Shown: positions 16,153 through 54,090 of the stretch, in pieces
How positions within the stretch are numbered: position 1 is the stretch's first letter
Layout: each line of letters begins with the position of its first letter
DNA from: Armatimonadota bacterium
GTDB taxonomy: Bacteria > Armatimonadota > HRBIN16
Assembly: GCA_026003195.1 (NCBI GenBank)
Contig: BPGU01000004.1
Span: 196,317 to 260,316, forward strand
Length of the DNA: 64,000 nt
Direction of reading: 5' to 3'
The notes under the pieces: generated by a model
Seen by the model: the letters and a program-made list of their open reading frames with translations, nothing else
Databases searched by the model: none
Told to the model about the DNA's origin: nothing
Program-made: the position numbers and the translations under genes

Positions 16153-16659
16153 ATGGGCAAAATCATGCATCAACTGGGCATCGAACCGGCGACCATCGTC
16201 GTCGAGATGGTGGGGTTCGTGCTGTTGCTGTTGCTGCTCAAACGTTTCCTGTGGGTTCCGGTGACGAACTATCTGGAGCAGCGTCAGAAGGACATCGCGC
16301 AGACATACGACAAGGTCGAGCAAACTCGTCAGGAGATGGAGCGACTTCGCAGCGAGTACGAGCAACGCCTTGCGAACATCGAGGCGGAAGCCCGTGCTCA
16401 GATTCAAGAGGCTGTCAAAGAAGCACAACAGTTGCGGGAACATATTCTGGCGGAAGCCCGGCAGCAAGCGGAAAAGATGGTACGCGACGCGGAAGAGACC
16501 ATTCGCTATGAGCGCGAGCGGGCGCTGTCGGAGATGCGGACACAGGTGGTGGAGCTGACCCTGCTGGCGACCTCCCGAATCCTGCAGGAGAGCGTGGATG
16601 ACGCCAGGCATCGCAAGATGGTAGAGGACTTTGTGGAGCAGGTGGCGAGCAACGGATGA
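16153..16659 (+). CDS. atpF: ATP synthase Fo subunit b
   Basis: 168 aa. One N-terminal membrane helix (about 12-30, VVEMVGFVLLLLLLKRFLW) is followed by a long charged coiled-coil that forms the peripheral stalk. Only one b gene is present, so a homodimer is expected. The start could be residue 1 or the Met at codon 5. The stop overlaps the delta start by 4 nt (ATGA). The 70-nt gap after subunit c contains GGCGGGGTG/CACCCCGCC (16087-16108), an inverted repeat that could set the usual high c-to-b ratio. Confidence 0.92.
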   Translation: MGKIMHQLGIEPATIVVEMVGFVLLLLLLKRFLWVPVTNYLEQRQKDIAQTYDKVEQTRQEMERLRSEYEQRLANIEAEARAQIQEAVKEAQQLREHILAEARQQAEKMVRDAEETIRYERERALSEMRTQVVELTLLATSRILQESVDDARHRKMVEDFVEQVASNG

Positions 16660-17201
16660 GGGAAGAACGCGTCGCTAAACGATATGCTCGTGCTCTGTTT
16701 CAGGCAGCAGTACGCGCTCAGGCAGTGGATGCGGTAAACGAGGCGTTGCAGCAACTGCTGGCTACACTGCACGAGCAGCCGCCTCTGCGATACCTGCTGC
16801 TCAACCCTCTGGTTCCGCGAGAGCGCAAGCAGCAGATGGTGCAGGAATCCATCGGGCGCCGCACGCATCCCCTGCTGGCATCCTTGCTCAGCGTTCTGGT
16901 AGACAAGCGACGGGAACGCTTGCTACCTGAGGTGGCGCGCGGGTTCAGCGAGCTGCGCGATGAGCACCTAGGCATCATGCGGGTGCAGGCCGTCACCGCC
17001 TATCCGCTGGATAGCCAGCAGGAACAGGCGCTGATCCGCAGCTTGGAACGGCGCACCGGCAAAACGGTGCTTCTGGAGACACAGGTAGACCCGTCGCTGA
17101 TTGGTGGTATCCTGGTGCGCATCGGCGACACGATTATCGACGGCAGTGTGCGTGGGCAGCTGCAGCGACTGAAGCAGTATTTGCTAAATGCTTGGGGATG
17201 A
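16656..17201 (+). CDS. atpH: ATP synthase F1 subunit delta
   Basis: 181 aa, typical for delta/OSCP, which links the peripheral stalk to the top of F1. The N-terminal [14 protein letters not shown] motif and the C-terminal [20 protein letters not shown], then [20 protein letters not shown] are characteristic. The start overlaps atpF by 4 nt. The end overlaps the long atpA frame, but the chosen atpA start at 17215 leaves a short gap instead. Confidence 0.93.
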
Positions 17202-17214
17202 GGAGGCAGGAGCC

Positions 17215-18738
<1,524 letters not shown>

Positions 18739-18741
18739 GCG

Positions 18742-19614
18742 ATGGCGACACTGAGGCAGATACGACAGCGGATCCGTATCGCGCGCAACATCCAGCAAAT
18801 CACCCGCGCGATGAAGCTGATCGCAGCCGCACGCCTGAAGCGGGCGCAAGACCGCGTGCTGGCATCGCGTCCCTATTCCGAGAAGATGCAGACGCTCATC
18901 GGTACGCTGGCACTGGCGAGCGGTGCCGTAGAACATCCGCTTCTGCAGAGCCGAGAACAGGTGCGCCGTGTGGGCGTTTTGCTCATCACCGCCGACAGGG
19001 GGCTGTGCGGCAGCTATAACACCAACATCATCCGTCGCTGCATGGATTTTGTGCGTCAGTACGAGCCCGATCAGGTGCGTCTGTTGACAGTGGGCAAGAA
19101 GGGAATGCAGTTCCTGCAGCGGCGAGGTTACCCCTCTGTACAGCATTTCAGCATCCCCCTGTCGGGACCCACCATCGCACACGCCCAGGAGATAGCGAAC
19201 GTCGCCCAGCAAATGTTCCTATCGGAGGAGGTGGATGAGTTCTATCTGGTATTCAGCCGTTTTCGCAGTGCGCTGGTGCAGATACCGACGGTGCAGCGCC
19301 TTCTGCCTGTGGAGCGTGCGGAGGCAGAAAACGGACGGGTGGAGTACCTGGATTTCCTTTTCGAGCCATCCTCCGAAGATTTGCTCAAGAGGCTGTTGCC
19401 TCGCTATGTGCTGAATCTGGTGTACCAGGCGTTACTGGAGTCTGCCGCTAGCGAGCATGGCGCGCGCATGACCGCTATGTCCGCCGCAACCGACAATGCG
19501 GGTAAAATGATATCGACACTCACTCTCAACCTGAACCGCGCCCGACAGGCAGCGATTACCAAAGAGATACTGGAGGTCGTGTCGGGAGCGGAGGCGTTGA
19601 AGGAGGGCGAGTAA
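18742..19614 (+). CDS. atpG: ATP synthase F1 subunit gamma
   Basis: 290 aa central-stalk subunit. The N-terminal coiled-coil RIRIARNIQQITRAMKLIAA and the C-terminal MSAATDNAGKMISTLTLNLN are the family hallmarks. It starts 3 nt after the atpA stop. In most bacteria atpD follows directly; here the next ATP synthase gene starts 3.8 kb later, after five unrelated genes on the same strand. Confidence 0.95.
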   Translation: MATLRQIRQRIRIARNIQQITRAMKLIAAARLKRAQDRVLASRPYSEKMQTLIGTLALASGAVEHPLLQSREQVRRVGVLLITADRGLCGSYNTNIIRRCMDFVRQYEPDQVRLLTVGKKGMQFLQRRGYPSVQHFSIPLSGPTIAHAQEIANVAQQMFLSEEVDEFYLVFSRFRSALVQIPTVQRLLPVERAEAENGRVEYLDFLFEPSSEDLLKRLLPRYVLNLVYQALLESAASEHGARMTAMSAATDNAGKMISTLTLNLNRARQAAITKEILEVVSGAEALKEGE

Positions 19615-19638
19615 CCCGTTCGCCCGGAGGTGATGGTA

Positions 19639-20991
19639 ATGTTGCGCCGTGTCTCGTTGCCCCTGCTGGCAGCATCGTGTGGGGTGTTGACGATAGGATG
19701 GGGGCTGGCACAGTCCCCGGACGTGGTGCGCCTGCCGGTGGTCTTTACCGAGCGCGAGGCGGTGATGGTGGCTCCGCCCGACTTCGTAGCTCCACCGGAG
19801 GTAGTGGACGGCAAATGGTCATCCGATGGGCGTTATGCTATCGTCGTGCGGCGGTATGCGCGCCTTGTCGACCCGCAGAACCTACCGGAGCAGTTTCAGT
19901 GGTCTCTTCTGGTGTGGGATAACCGCCAGAAGCGAGCTGTAGAGGTTTGGAAAAGCACCGGAGGGCAAAAGCTGGTGTCTGAGATACAGTGGATGGCAGG
20001 TGCACCCGTTGCGTTGCTGAAGATGCACGGCGGTGTGCGCGAGGTCGTAGAGGACGTTTGGGAAGAAACTATCGTCTTTGCGCGTGTACACGCCGCAAGC
20101 GGCACCTTGAAAATGTTAGGAGAACCCGACCGCTGGAAGGAAATGAACGTCTCGCCAGTGAAGCCGTTCGCTCTGCTACTGGGCGAGCAGGCTTACCAGG
20201 TGCTTCGGGCGGATGGCACGCTCAGTGCGCCCATCCCGTATGAGCAGGTATTCTCAGCAGGTGAATCCCGACGCCCTTCGTGGACGTGGATGTTCGGAGC
20301 AACATGGACGGCAGACGGCACGAAACTGGTAGTCGAGCTGCTCGACAAGACGCCTGAAGGCAAAACGGAGAAAAAGTTCATCATGGTAGACCCGCTTGCG
20401 AGAACGAGCCAGTCTGTTTCGCAGGAGCCTCCGCTGTATGAGCCTGCTCCGCGCCGTCTCCCTCTGCGGGTGGAGATGGTAGAGGGCGAGCTGAAGGCGG
20501 GGGATAGCGTGGCAGAGGTGCGCTCGGCATGGCTGGTGGGTAGCAAAGGGCGTACCTTGATATGCGCGGATGTGCAAGCGGCAGACTTGACTCCCACAGG
20601 GGAGGCAGTATGGTATATCTCGCAGGGAGCGGCATGGGTAACGCCTCTGCGAAAGCTCACGCAGAAGCAGTACGATGCGCTACATCGCGAGGCGTTGCGC
20701 GAAACGGTCATGTCCAACGCTAAGCAGATTGGACTGGCGCTGCTGATGTACGTGCAGGACTACGACGAGACCTTCCCACCCAACACGGGCAATGTACAGG
20801 ATATTCTGATGCCCTACGTCCAGAATCAGCAGGTATTCAACTTGCCCGGCACCAGCTTCTTCTACCTGATGAACGCACACACTCTGCCGAGCATCGACCG
20901 ACCTGCAGAGACGATGGCAGGCTACATCCAGACCCCATACGGACGCGCGGTCATCTGGGTAGACGGGCACGTGACGTGGCAGAGCGATTAA
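19639..20991 (+). CDS. Secreted propeller-like protein with pseudopilin-type C-terminus
   Basis: 450 aa. The start at ATG 19639 has CGGAGG 8 nt upstream; in-frame GTG 19630 and ATG 19633 are alternatives. A signal peptide is visible (LPLLAASCGVLTIGWGLAQ), then about 300 residues of WD/TolB-like beta repeats (WSSDGRYAIVVRR, TWTADGTKLVVELLD). The last 100 residues (SNAKQIGLALLMYVQDYDET, then YGRAVIWVDGHVTW) look like the C-terminal part of DUF1559/H-X9-DG prepilins, without the prepilin leader. It is likely periplasmic or surface-located. The function is unknown. It lies between atpG and the Uma2 array and ends 14 nt before it. Confidence 0.75.
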   Translation: MLRRVSLPLLAASCGVLTIGWGLAQSPDVVRLPVVFTEREAVMVAPPDFVAPPEVVDGKWSSDGRYAIVVRRYARLVDPQNLPEQFQWSLLVWDNRQKRAVEVWKSTGGQKLVSEIQWMAGAPVALLKMHGGVREVVEDVWEETIVFARVHAASGTLKMLGEPDRWKEMNVSPVKPFALLLGEQAYQVLRADGTLSAPIPYEQVFSAGESRRPSWTWMFGATWTADGTKLVVELLDKTPEGKTEKKFIMVDPLARTSQSVSQEPPLYEPAPRRLPLRVEMVEGELKAGDSVAEVRSAWLVGSKGRTLICADVQAADLTPTGEAVWYISQGAAWVTPLRKLTQKQYDALHREALRETVMSNAKQIGLALLMYVQDYDETFPPNTGNVQDILMPYVQNQQVFNLPGTSFFYLMNAHTLPSIDRPAETMAGYIQTPYGRAVIWVDGHVTWQSD

Positions 20992-21005
20992 GGCAGGGAG
21001 AGCCG

Positions 21006-21569
21006 ATGGCTGTCACCGCTGGGAAAAAGACGTACACGATAGACGACCTGTGGGAACTGTCGCACAGGGTAAAGGACAGGCGTCTGGAACTGGTGAGGGG
21101 AGAACTGAGGGAATTGGCACCAGCAAACGACGAGCACGGGTACCTGGCAAGCCAGCTATTACTGATTGTCGCGCAGTTTGTCAAGCAACACGGTCTGGGC
21201 TACACTTTCGCTGCGGAGACGGGCTTTGTGCTTTTGGAGAACCCTGCCACCGTGCGGGCGCCTGATTTTGCCTTCGTCTCGCGGGAGCGTGTGCCCAGGC
21301 AATGGACACGCCATTTTGCTCGTTATGTGCCCGACCTGGTAGCGGAGGTGGTCTCTCCCAGCGATACCTTCAGCGAAGTGACGGAGAAAGTAGACGACTG
21401 GTTGCAGGCGGGGGTAAGGATGGTGTGGGTGGTGGATCCGTCCAGTCGGGTAGTATATGTGTATCGTGCAGGACAGCCTGTGCGTGTGTTGCATGAGGAA
21501 GACGTGCTGCAAGGCGAAGAGGTGTTGCCCGGTTTCCAGTGCAAGGTGTCCGAGATTTTCGCGCGATAG
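21006..21569 (+). CDS. Uma2 family endonuclease-like protein, array copy 1
   Basis: 187 aa. Uma2 (DUF820) has a PD-(D/E)XK nuclease-like fold; the biological role is generally unknown. The acidic residues expected at the active site are in VRAPDFAFVSRE and PDLVAEVVSPSDTFSE, followed by EKVDDWLQAG and VWVVDP. The start at 21006 is set by conservation with the other copies and AGGCAGGGAG upstream; a frame to 20976 would overlap the preceding gene. It is the first of four tandem copies. Its 3' end and the 15-nt gap are almost identical to those of copies 2 and 3. Confidence 0.85.
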   Translation: MAVTAGKKTYTIDDLWELSHRVKDRRLELVRGELRELAPANDEHGYLASQLLLIVAQFVKQHGLGYTFAAETGFVLLENPATVRAPDFAFVSRERVPRQWTRHFARYVPDLVAEVVSPSDTFSEVTEKVDDWLQAGVRMVWVVDPSSRVVYVYRAGQPVRVLHEEDVLQGEEVLPGFQCKVSEIFAR

Positions 21570-21690
21570 AGGCAGGGAAAGCAGATGGCTGTAGCCACGG
21601 CAAAGAAGACATACACGATAGACGACCTGTGGGAACTGTCGCATCGCACAGGCAAACGCCTGGAACTGGTAAAAGGAGAACTGAGAGAGT
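21480..21690 (+). repeat. Uma2 array connector repeat (instance between copies 1 and 2)
   Basis: About 200 bp spanning the 3' end of one Uma2 gene, the 15-nt gap and the 5' end of the next. Near-identical instances lie at about 22060-22280 and 22640-22860. The perfectly shared core includes GAGGCAGGGAAAGCAGATGG at the junction (GGGATGGCAG in the last one). Such homogenised joints around divergent cores favour unequal recombination and gene conversion. Confidence 0.75.
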
Positions 21691-22151
21691 TGACCCCGAG
21701 TGGATGGGAGCACGGCAGGTTATGTGCGCGGATAGCGCGTTTGCTGGACGAATACGCTGAGCGCGAGGAAACGGGTATCGTACTGGGAGCGGAGGCGGGG
21801 TGTATCTTGCAAGGCGGTGACCATCCCACAGTACGTGCGGCGGATGCAGCATATGTGCGTACAGAGCGTCTACCGCAAGGTGTCGTGCCGCAGCGTTTCG
21901 GGGAGGTGCCTCCCGACCTGGTGGTGGAGGTGCTGTCTCCGTCTGATACCTTCTCAGAGGTAGCAGAGAAGGTGAGTGACTGGCTGCAGGCAGGAGTGCA
22001 GCTGGTATGGGTGGTGGACCCTGCAGATCACACGGTGAGCGTGCACCGTGCGGGGCATCCTGTGCGTGTGTTGCATGAGGAGGACGTGCTGCAAGGCGAA
22101 GAGGTATTGCCCGGTTTCCAGTGCAAGGTGTCGGAGATTTTCGCACGATAG
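21585..22151 (+). CDS. Uma2 family endonuclease-like protein, array copy 2 (divergent core)
   Basis: 188 aa. The first 24 residues and last 30 are nearly the same as in the other copies at both DNA and protein level. The core (about residues 37-155) is clearly divergent: SGWEHGRLCARIARLLDEYA, VRAADAAYVRTERLP, PDLVVEVLSPSDTFSE. The active-site Asp (RAAD) and Glu (VVEV) are retained. It therefore looks like a different Uma2 paralogue carried on the same connector DNA. It starts 15 nt after copy 1. Confidence 0.85.
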   Translation: MAVATAKKTYTIDDLWELSHRTGKRLELVKGELRELTPSGWEHGRLCARIARLLDEYAEREETGIVLGAEAGCILQGGDHPTVRAADAAYVRTERLPQGVVPQRFGEVPPDLVVEVLSPSDTFSEVAEKVSDWLQAGVQLVWVVDPADHTVSVHRAGHPVRVLHEEDVLQGEEVLPGFQCKVSEIFAR

Positions 22152-22166
22152 AGGCAGGGAAAGCAG

Positions 22167-22730
22167 ATGGCTGTAGCCACGGCAAAGAGGACATACACGA
22201 TAGACGACCTGTGGGAGCTGTCGCACAGGGTGAGGGACAAGCGTCTGGAGCTGGTCAGGGGGGAACTGAGAGAGTTGGCGCCGGCAAACGAAGAACACGG
22301 GTATCTCACGATGCGCCTCGGGACGCTGGTGACGGTATTCGTCATGCAACACCAGTTGGGCTACACTTTTGCAGCGGAGACGGGCTTTGTGTTGTCGGAG
22401 GAGCCTGCCACCGTTCGTGCGCCCGATTTTGCGTTTCTTTCTCGCGAGCGCGCTCCGCAGGAGTGGAGCCGCCACTTTGCCCGCTATGTTCCCGACCTGG
22501 TGGCGGAGGTGGTCTCTCCGAATGATACCTTCAGCGAAGTGGCGGAGAAAGTGAACGACTGGTTACAGGCGGGGGTAAGGATGGTGTGGGTGGTGGATCC
22601 GTCCAGTCGGGTAGTATATGTGTATCGTGCAGGACAGCCTGTGCGTGTGTTGCATGAGGAGGACGTGCTGCAAGGCGAAGAGGTATTGCCCGGTTTCCAG
22701 TGCAAGGTGTCGGAGATTTTCGCACGATAG
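22167..22730 (+). CDS. Uma2 family endonuclease-like protein, array copy 3
   Basis: 187 aa. It is almost identical to copy 4 at DNA level apart from a block at 22305-22357 coding LTMRLGTLVTVFVMQHQ, where copy 4 has an unrelated sequence of equal length. Active-site segments VRAPDFAFLSRE and PDLVAEVVSPNDTFSE are intact. The 15-nt gap (GAGGCAGGGAAAGCAG-type) and the first codons match copy 2 exactly or nearly so. It is expected to be co-transcribed with the array and possibly with the ATP synthase genes. Confidence 0.85.
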   Translation: MAVATAKRTYTIDDLWELSHRVRDKRLELVRGELRELAPANEEHGYLTMRLGTLVTVFVMQHQLGYTFAAETGFVLSEEPATVRAPDFAFLSRERAPQEWSRHFARYVPDLVAEVVSPNDTFSEVAEKVNDWLQAGVRMVWVVDPSSRVVYVYRAGQPVRVLHEEDVLQGEEVLPGFQCKVSEIFAR

Positions 22731-22745
22731 AGGCAGGGATGGCAG

Positions 22746-23309
22746 ATGGCTGTAGCCACGGCAAAGAGGACATACACGATAGACGACCTGTGGGAGCTGT
22801 CGCACAGGGTGAGGGACAAGCGTCTGGAGCTGGTCAGGGGGGAACTGAGAGAGTTGGCGCCGGCAAACGAAGAACACGGGTATGTCGCAGGAAGGATGTT
22901 TTATGTGGTGACGCATTATGTGGCAACGCATCGTCTGGGCTACACTTTTGCAGCGGAGACGGGCTTTGTGTTGTCGGAGGAGCCTGCCACCGTTCGTGCG
23001 CCCGATTTTGCGTTTCTTTCTCGCGAGCGCGCTCCGCAGGAGTGGAGCCGCCATTTTGCCCGCTATGTGCCCGACCTGGTGGCGGAGGTGGTCTCTCCGA
23101 ATGATACCTTCAGCGAAGTGGCGGAGAAAGTGAACGACTGGTTGCAGGCGGGGGTAAGGATGGTGTGGGTGGTGGATCCGTCCAGTCGGGTAGTGTATGT
23201 GTATCGTGCGGGACAGCCTGTGCGTGTGCTGCATGAGGAGGACGTGCTAACAGGTGAAGAGGTGTTGCCCGGTTTCCAGTGCAAGGTGTCGGAGATTTTC
23301 GCGCGGTAG
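22746..23309 (+). CDS. Uma2 family endonuclease-like protein, array copy 4
   Basis: 187 aa, last of the array. It matches copy 3 closely except for 22884-22936, coding VAGRMFYVVTHYVATHR, and a small change near the end (LTGEEVLPG for LQGEEVLPG). Active-site residues are intact. It is followed by a 139-bp gap containing an R3 repeat before atpD; no terminator is seen there, so read-through to atpD is plausible. Confidence 0.85.
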   Translation: MAVATAKRTYTIDDLWELSHRVRDKRLELVRGELRELAPANEEHGYVAGRMFYVVTHYVATHRLGYTFAAETGFVLSEEPATVRAPDFAFLSRERAPQEWSRHFARYVPDLVAEVVSPNDTFSEVAEKVNDWLQAGVRMVWVVDPSSRVVYVYRAGQPVRVLHEEDVLTGEEVLPGFQCKVSEIFAR

Positions 23310-23320
23310 CTGAGTAGAGA

Positions 23321-23360
23321 GAAGCATCTCGGAGATCCTTCGCTTCGCTCAGAATGACAC
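23321..23360 (+). repeat. Dispersed repeat R3 between the Uma2 array and atpD
   Basis: GAAGCATCTCGGAGATCCTT continuing through CGCTTCGCTCAGAATGACAC. A degraded relative is at 4748-4803. The end CTCAGAATGACA is a motif I know from dispersed repeats in many environmental bacteria; whether it is mobile is unknown. Confidence 0.5.
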
Positions 23361-23424
23361 GAATGTTGGGAATGTCAGGGCGCCAGAACGACAGCCTGGC
23401 AGATGTGACAAATATTCTTTCTGA

Positions 23425-24852
<1,428 letters not shown>

Positions 24853-24864
24853 CGGGGGCAAACG

Positions 24865-25290
24865 ATGGCGAAGAGCTTCCATCTGGAAATTGTAACCCCG
24901 GACCGCGCACTGCTGTCCGAGGAGGCGGTCAGCATCGTTGCGCCCGGAGTGGAGGGGTACCTGGGCGTGCTGCCGAACCACGCGCCTCTGGTGACCGAAC
25001 TGAAGGTGGGCATTCTGCGCATCCGGTACCCGGATGATACCGAGGAGAACGTGGCGGTTTCGGGCGGGTTTATGGAGGTCGTGAACAACCGGGTGTTGGT
25101 GCTGGCAGATGCCGCCGAACGTCCACAGGATATCGACATCCAGCGGGCGAAAGAGGCACTCCTCCGCGCCCGACAGAGGCTGCAAGACCCTACCACAGAC
25201 CATGAGCACGCCCGAGTGGCACTGGAGCGTGCCATCAATCGGCTGAAGGCAGCCGGAGTAGAGTTCACCAGAGAATTAGAAGAAGGTTAA
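24865..25290 (+). CDS. atpC: ATP synthase F1 subunit epsilon
   Basis: 141 aa. The N-terminal beta-sandwich (FHLEIVTPDRALLSEEAVSI, GYLGVLPNHAPLVTELK) is followed by a C-terminal helical hairpin (RAKEALLRARQRL) that can inhibit ATP hydrolysis. It starts 12 nt after the atpD stop and closes the operon before a strong hairpin. Confidence 0.94.
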   Translation: MAKSFHLEIVTPDRALLSEEAVSIVAPGVEGYLGVLPNHAPLVTELKVGILRIRYPDDTEENVAVSGGFMEVVNNRVLVLADAAERPQDIDIQRAKEALLRARQRLQDPTTDHEHARVALERAINRLKAAGVEFTRELEEG

Positions 25291-50043: not shown

Positions 50044-50622
50044 ATGGCTCTGCCAGAAGCGCTTCGTTCACGGCTCACATGGGAACAATATGTGCAAACG
50101 CCCGAAAGCATGGAGCGCGTGGAGATTGAAGACGGTGAGGTAAAGCTGATGGCATCCCCCACGGGAACACATCAACTGATTCTGGGCAATCTGCATCTCA
50201 TGTTGGCTGGCAATTCCTTCGTTCGGGCACAGGGCATCGTGCTCATGGCGCCGTTCGATGTGGTGATTTCCCGCCGTCCTCTTCGAGTGCGCCAGCCTGA
50301 CCTGCTGTATATCAGCAAACAACGCCTGCAGGCAGATGACCTCCGACCTCTACAGCGGCTGGAGATAGCTCCCGAACTGGTCGTGGAAGTGCTTTCACCC
50401 AGCGACACCTTTGTGCATCTGTCTCGCAAGCTGGCAGACTATCACCTTATCGGCGTGCAAGAGGTGTGGCTCGTAGATGCAGAGCAGAGTCAGGTGTTCC
50501 TGTTATCTCGCGAAGAACGAGGCTGGCTCTGGCAAGGACCTCTGACGGGTGAAGAGGAGATACCCTCTGCTGTGCTACCCGAAGCACGGATTGCCGTCCA
50601 GACAATCTTTGAAGGAGGATAA
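50044..50622 (+). CDS. Uma2 family endonuclease-like protein
   Basis: 192 aa. The start at 50044 has AGGTGGTGA 5 nt upstream; the frame is open to 49951 but that part is R2 repeat DNA. GTHQLILGNLHLMLAGNSFV is the variable helix, VRQPDLLYIS holds the active-site Asp, and PELVVEVLSPSDTFVHLSRK the Glu. It is distinct in sequence from the four-copy array. It is followed after 3 nt by a cupin gene, whose ribosome site GAAGGAGG lies in the last codons. Confidence 0.85.
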   Translation: MALPEALRSRLTWEQYVQTPESMERVEIEDGEVKLMASPTGTHQLILGNLHLMLAGNSFVRAQGIVLMAPFDVVISRRPLRVRQPDLLYISKQRLQADDLRPLQRLEIAPELVVEVLSPSDTFVHLSRKLADYHLIGVQEVWLVDAEQSQVFLLSREERGWLWQGPLTGEEEIPSAVLPEARIAVQTIFEGG

Positions 50623-53463: not shown

Positions 53464-54090
53464 ATGGCACAGCAAACGCTCATACCACCTGCACGCCCGT
53501 TGCCCAGAGGCAAAATCAGCTATGAACAGTTCCTGGAGTGGCTGGACGAAGACACCTGGGCAGAGTGGGTGGACGGAGAGGTAGAACTGATGAGTCCGGT
53601 TTCTCTGGAACACGACAGGATATACGGTTTCCTGTTTTCTATTCTTCGAATATTCGTCTCGGCGCACGATATGGGCACAGTACACTCGGAGCCTTTCCAG
53701 ATGAAGACGGGACGTGAACTTCCCGGTCGCTCGCCAGACATTCTGTTCGTGAGCAGAGAAAACCAGCATCGCCTGAAGCCCACCTATCTGGATGGACCTG
53801 CCGACTTGGTGGTGGAAATTGTCAGCCCCGATAGCGAAGAGCGCGACCGCGTGCAGAAGTTCGCCGAATACCAGCAGGGCGGTGTGCGCGAATACTGGTT
53901 GATAGACCCTCAGAAGCAGCAGGCGGAGTTCTACGTGCTGGACGCAGCGGGGAGGTATGCGCTGCAGGCGAAGGGCGGTTCGGGTGAGTATCGGAGTAAG
54001 GTGCTGGAGGGTTTATGGCTGAGGATAGAGTGGTTGTGGAACCCGCCGCCGGAGATCGAGGTGCTCAAGAAGTGGGGAATGGTGTCGTAA
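53464..54090 (+). CDS. Uma2 family endonuclease-like protein
   Basis: 208 aa. KISYEQFLEWLDEDTWAEWV, GRSPDILFVSRENQHRL (active-site Asp), ADLVVEIVSPDSEERDRVQK (Glu and Lys) and REYWLIDPQKQQAEFY are typical, so all PD-(D/E)XK-like parts are present. It belongs to the SPDS-type subgroup, unlike the SPSD/SPND-type array copies. GAGGTGATG lies just upstream of the ATG. Confidence 0.87.
   Translation: MAQQTLIPPARPLPRGKISYEQFLEWLDEDTWAEWVDGEVELMSPVSLEHDRIYGFLFSILRIFVSAHDMGTVHSEPFQMKTGRELPGRSPDILFVSRENQHRLKPTYLDGPADLVVEIVSPDSEERDRVQKFAEYQQGGVREYWLIDPQKQQAEFYVLDAAGRYALQAKGGSGEYRSKVLEGLWLRIEWLWNPPPEIEVLKKWGMVS

Follow-up and report, generated by a model that had tools for sequence, protein, structure and literature searches.

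The Uma2 array and its surroundings

In the window (the whole stretch of 64,000 nucleotides analysed here), four Uma2 open reading frames follow one another in tandem on the plus strand, separated by spacers of 15 bases (Table 1). The array is situated between an ORF of 453 residues, which follows atpG, and atpD; in the region from 16656 to 25290, the ATP synthase operon is split between atpG and atpD by the array together with this ORF. The 453-residue ORF (19630-20991) had no Pfam match. In those genomes of the same genus whose contigs cover the site, Uma2 copies likewise adjoin atpD, and a comparable placement is described for Synechocystis, whose hox hydrogenase operon contains a DUF820 gene (PMC4963859). 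For copy 1, an in-frame start at 20976 is also possible and would result in a longer ORF. Single Uma2 genes of other subfamilies are found in the window at 50044-50619 and 53464-54087.

Very large numbers of Uma2 genes occur in some cyanobacteria, Thermus, and Armatimonadota. The genome to which the window belongs contains 36 Uma2 matches, and a DNA-level comparison with copy 4 recovers only the four copies of the array. By their profile scores (117-125 bits vs. a curated cut-off of 27), all four copies are members of the Uma2/DUF820/COG4636 family (PF05685) of PD-(D/E)XK putative nucleases. An AlphaFold2 model of copy 4, built from 13 aligned sequences (mean pLDDT 89.8), has the fold of the family: the best PDB match found by Foldseek is 1wdj (E=3.4e-15, TM 0.84), and among solved structures the Uma2 proteins 1wdj, 9y1l, 6okh, and 3ot2 come closest. 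The active site is kept as well, with H44, D87, E114, and K128 invariant across the four copies and matching the Uma2 layout His - PD - ExX, in which the Lys is relocated to a helix (PMC551604). The conserved His (His44 here) was suggested by Feder and Bujnicki to aid metal or substrate binding (PMC551604), the nuclease activity of the family being itself a prediction.

Table 1. Positions (in the window) and characteristics of the Uma2 copies and their segments; G numbers denote compared genomes.
Feature	Position	Strand	Helix type or state	Basis and remarks
Uma2 copy 1	21006..21569	+	helix type A	PF05685 E=3.3e-35; ORF; MAV start agrees with other copies
Uma2 copy 2	21585..22151	+	divergent helix type D; both ends homogenised to neighbours	PF05685 E=2.2e-36
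Uma2 copy 3	22167..22730	+	helix type B	PF05685 E=5.6e-34; block orthologues in G005, G006, and G009 arrays
Uma2 copy 4	22746..23309	+	helix type C	PF05685 E=2e-34; block elsewhere only in third copy of G005 array
Copy 3 divergence island (block)	22305..22357	+	alpha-1 type B	33/53 differ from copy 4; 1/53 from G005 orthologue
Copy 4 divergence island (block)	22884..22936	+	alpha-1 type C	0/53 differ from G005 orthologue
Copy 1 equivalent block	21144..21196	+	type A	CDS offset 138-190; type also in G005 and G003
Copy 2 equivalent helix	21711..21776	+	type D	alignment; relative in G002
Copy 4 helix alpha-1, residues 42-62	22869..22931	+		AlphaFold2 model
Copy 3 5' segment	22163..22304	+	identical to copy 4	polarised as probable conversion tract from copy 4 to copy 3, stopping at the block
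Copy 3 3' segment	22358..22730	+	homogenised with copy 4	13/373 differ; AU test prefers paralogue tree

One divergent block among homogenised copies

A gapless alignment of copies 3 (22152-22730) and 4 (22731-23309) contains 48 differences in 579 positions, and these are distributed very unequally: 33 fall into the 53 bases of a single block (62%) vs. 15 into the other 526 (2.9%), whereas 100,000 random placements of 48 differences never brought more than 19 into any run of 53 bases. The 142 bases before the block are identical in both copies; the 373 bases after it contain 13 differences, synonymous except for one codon, and only one residue outside the block (position 169) separates the two copies. 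The block has the same length in both copies and is in frame, and copy 1 possesses a third version of it, which is around 50% different from both. In the model of copy 4, it comprises residues 47-64, i.e., most of the core helix alpha-1, one long helix (residues 42-62) situated just before GYTFAAETG, and the short turn after it. In all these respects, the description given in an earlier note on this DNA holds: a sharply bounded block of 53 bp between near-identical copies 3 and 4, shared bases before and few changes after, equal length and frame, a third version in copy 1, a single helix ahead of GYTFAAETG, and a concentration of differences which drift cannot produce. Copy 2 shows the same pattern with a larger protected core, its identity to copy 3 amounting to 0.97-1.00 in the first 60 columns, 0.90-1.00 in the last 100, and 0.37-0.80 in the middle.

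Concerning the codons, residues that are unchanged between the blocks of copies 3 and 4 are differently encoded (R50 by CGC/AGG, and equally V59, H62, and L64), and pS reaches 0.76 in the block vs. 0.00, 0.04, and 0.17 in the segments outside it. Both observations point to an old divergence of the whole DNA segment, for which positive selection on amino acids alone since the duplication is an insufficient explanation.

In a genome of the same genus (G005), an array of three copies occupies the equivalent site between the 453-residue ORF and atpD. It carries the helices of copies 1, 3, and 4 of the window, and its blocks differ from theirs at 13, 1, and 0 of 53 nucleotides, respectively; paralogues, in contrast, differ at 32-33 of 53. 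Outside the block, the relationship is the reverse: over CDS positions 311-564, the G005 copies differ by 0-0.8% among themselves and window copies 3 and 4 by 4.7%, whereas orthologues differ by 10-13%. In the 5' part (138 bases), no difference exists between copies 3 and 4, a single one between copy 4 and its G005 orthologue, but 11 between copy 3 and its own orthologue; most simply, copy 4 was thus copied onto copy 3 as far as the edge of the block. AU tests agree with the distances in placing paralogues closer than orthologues outside the island and the reverse inside it, since the tree with paralogues together is rejected for the helix segment (p=2e-43 for B/C; 8e-4 for A/B) and the tree with orthologues by type for the 3' flank (p=1e-6 and 1e-12). 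The flanks, and not the block, are therefore the recently overwritten part, and they were homogenised separately inside each genome. Judged from these comparisons of sequences, the array has almost certainly undergone concerted evolution, in which gene conversion acted on the copies and one helix was protected from it.

The earlier note had called the block hypervariable, but between species it is the more conserved part, such that the pattern is reversed. Local replacement, templated diversification, or strong selection at one helix had been put forward there as causes; selection is retained, whereas replacement and diversification are not, the versions being old, shared by species, and devoid of donors. 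Searches for donor or template DNA of the block, also considered in that note, found it in the own genome and in nine genomes of the same genus only at orthologous copies, and the viral contigs searched contained no relatives. Homologues in which the surroundings vary like the block had been regarded as speaking against that note's reading; in G005 the surroundings vary even more, which refutes diversification but leaves selection on the helix untouched. Hypermutation was rejected, as the blocks are conserved between species. Active diversification in general, be it by cassette replacement, a diversity-generating retroelement, or hypermutation, could account for blocks that are so different and so sharply edged in copies 3 and 4; the lack of donors in the ten genomes of the genus, the near-identity of blocks between species, and substitutions not limited to adenines make it highly improbable. 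An assembly chimera, to which near-identical tandem repeats are prone and which had likewise been considered, has a negligible probability, for the independent G005 assembly shows both blocks, that of copy 3 and that of copy 4, in unchanged order.

Type B is also found in the same array of G006 and G009 (block DNA 84% and 77% identical), and type A in G003. Across species, block pN within types A and B is 0.06-0.14 at pS 0.5-0.9 when the near-identical pairs of types B and C between the window and G005 are left out, a low divergence which follows partly from the definition of the types by the helix itself; between types A, B, and C, block pN is 0.37-0.54 at similar pS. Flank pN is mostly around 0.06-0.15. 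That the same few discrete versions recur in different species does not follow from the definition of the types. To judge from these values, the versions of the helix are old, having lasted across species to the point at which synonymous divergence is saturated, and their long persistence suggests a maintained function. Between the window and G005, pS in the blocks of types B and C (0-0.14) and in the 453-residue ORF (0.12) lies below the baseline of atpA/atpD/atpC (0.39-0.48), from which some exchange between the two lineages, apparently recent and in or beside the array, is likely; the argument on age therefore leans on G006 and G009 (type B) and on G003.

The same helix in other Uma2 sets

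Tandem sets and a self-comparison of one genome provided further Uma2 pairs, which were selected for adjacency or for similar sequence elsewhere in the gene, irrespective of the helix. The 13 tandem or close sets belong to several families of Armatimonadota and to a cyanobacterium, there on a plasmid; in them, 137 of 280 helix residues differ (49%) vs. 170 of 1970 residues in the rest (8.6%), with a single main divergence peak that is centred on alpha-1. Three examples from the own genome are C4:462k (14/22 helix vs. 4/155 other residues, p=4e-12), C4:268k (16/21 vs. 5/142, p=6e-14), and C2:792k (13/22 vs. 15/149, p=7e-7). Eleven later pairs, with a flank identity of 70% or more, came from loci retrieved in the search for orthologues and from additional genera, several of them being orthologous to earlier sets and not fully independent; eight of these pairs reach p<0.01 (with clear margins or at 0.009) and one p=0.02, one (L134) exhibits no helix excess, and one is a near-exact duplicate with identical helices.

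The opposite grouping of helix and flanks is also found at other loci. Between G001 C71 and G007 C209, helix sites group by type (12 v 0) and flank sites by genome (14 v 0 and 41 v 3); between G001 C66 and G004 C54, the helix again groups by type (20 v 2) and the flanks by genome (22 v 1 and 34 v 3), with AU p<0.001 in each direction. In the comparison of the own C2:792k with G005, grouping is by type in the 5' flank and the helix and mixed in the 3' flank (21 v 29 sites), as would be expected of a partial tract.

A second tandem set (L094 / G000:C2:791700-794100; L123; L122; L120; L121) retains the two types Q and S/D next to each other in several species, the flanks having been homogenised within each genome, and might constitute an obligate pair. 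In the plasmid searches, one multi-copy cyanobacterial record was obtained, the conjugative plasmid of Pseudanabaena sp. PCC 7367 (L111, NC_019690.1:251500-280500), which carries 19 Uma2 matches, many of them among phycobilisome genes. Close Uma2 copies on this plasmid can be divided by their helices into two groups, the bodies being similar, and some pairs also share a helix. The pair at G003 C126 (L113, G003:C126:5500-8200) possesses identical helices and nearly identical bodies, which reflects either recent duplication or conversion across the helix.

Mismatch lowers conversion, an effect put forward for the intron islands in other gene duplicates (PMC3728101). With a neutral barrier of this kind, the helix could have diverged by chance and the mismatch then have stopped conversion without any selection. 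This is very unlikely, however: the same helix forms the island in most of the 13 sets, which belong to different Uma2 subfamilies, nearly always in frame and gapless, the variation tracks the geometry of the helix, and constraint acts on the helix within types. Moreover, the pair at G003 C126 suggests that homogenisation through the helix is mechanically possible. With bodies homogenised and alpha-1 repeatedly spared at the same place, conversion together with selection against overwriting is the established reading. Under this reading, conversion between copies keeps overwriting all but one segment of 53-66 bp, which encodes alpha-1, and selection purges those events that overwrite this segment. 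Gene conversion acts here as a natural experiment, in which unimportant differences between copies are erased and the important one is left, and its pattern points to one face of one helix as what identifies each copy functionally.

The exposed face of alpha-1 and comparison with known systems

The variable positions of alpha-1 recur with a periodicity of 95-100 degrees per residue (permutation p=0.00055) and lie on one face of the helix, which in copy 4 comprises residues 48-49, 52-53, and 56-57 with their neighbours, the opposite face being more conserved and hydrophobic. Among 140 homologues, the central variable positions are 12% charged (K/R 6%) and 33% large hydrophobic, and charge is confined to the C-terminal end of the helix. 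So charge-poor a face would suit contact with another protein better than exposure to solvent or binding of nucleic acid. In the crystal of the relative 1wdj, an extensive A-B contact is recorded (153 residue pairs; PMC7582526).

The exposed face of alpha-1 may thus represent the identity of each copy, and the helix would probably be a homotypic interface, alpha-1 lying against alpha-1 across a two-fold axis. A single change of the helix would then alter both sides of the contact together, such that paralogues with otherwise identical surfaces would stay unmixed. Since residue 169 is the only difference between copies 3 and 4 outside the block and little else is available for co-adaptation, self-contact of the helix is the simplest change of recognition in one place. 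For alpha-1 as a candidate interface of self-pairing in particular, the chances appear to be about even. For the explanation as a whole, i.e., that the alpha-1 spared by conversion gives each copy its identity, most likely via this candidate homotypic interface, we estimate a probability of roughly 55%. A role in dimer pairing or partner recognition, which the earlier note had supposed, is accordingly the function that seems to fit the helix best.

Two other functions are conceivable for alpha-1, and both appear rather unlikely. If its exposed face set substrate specificity, each paralogue recognising its own site or structure in DNA or RNA, selection for distinct targets would likewise shield one element from conversion, and the helix does begin near the active site, at the conserved His44 (PMC551604); the central variable positions, however, poor in charge and rich in hydrophobic and small residues, are unlike a surface that reads DNA, with charge found only at the C-terminal end. 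Scarcely different in probability, and if anything slightly lower, is an obligate hetero-oligomer of the copies, or separate cognate partners encoded elsewhere to which alpha-1 is fitted. Several sets indeed keep exactly two types across species (Q+S in the own C2:792k, G005, G001, and G007; G+T in G001 C66 and G004 C54), but the array of the window contains three to four types, G003 and G005 possess different subsets, and some copies are single, which argues against a fixed stoichiometry, and the spacers within the array are too short for a partner gene between copies.

If self-pairing through alpha-1 is correct, the helix could, as a more tentative extension by analogy, serve as a family-wide modular pairing code, in which the dozens of Uma2 paralogues of a cell would form insulated, self-pairing species with interchangeable bodies, kept by genomes as tandem sets and marked apart by this helix alone. 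No experimental test of Uma2 function was found in the literature, and the helix offers a specific experimental handle on this family of putative nucleases.

Tandem copies and paralogue cassettes of Uma2 were already noted (PMC551604, PMC2701414), and the family was proposed to be a selfish element (PMC551604) or a likely solo toxin forming paralogue cassettes (PMC2701414). Neither idea predicts the protected copy-specific helix of this array, and no report of such a helix with homogenised bodies in Uma2 was found in the open PMC literature.

The arrangement is comparable in its logic to that of the clustered protocadherins, tandem paralogues in which conversion spares EC2-EC3, the domains of homophilic dimer specificity, and homogenises the other ectodomains (PMC4978886). 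Despite this likeness, the protocadherins are unrelated animal cell-surface proteins, and the link to dimer specificity is experimental there, whereas it is inferred for Uma2. In exon 5 of the human red and green opsins, a divergence peak is held by selection against conversion and is read as the target of selection (PMC3924837); the opsins are an unrelated eukaryotic pair, in which two residues matter, whereas in Uma2 the whole face of a helix would be concerned. Islands are likewise described in other duplicated genes (PMC3728101). A divergence peak kept by selection against conversion is therefore known as such, and the copy-specific helix of Uma2 appears to be a new instance of it: the array would constitute a bacterial case, with parallels in several gene sets, in which selection holds one protein element against conversion and, should the pairing code prove true, a bacterial counterpart of the recognition arrangement of protocadherins.
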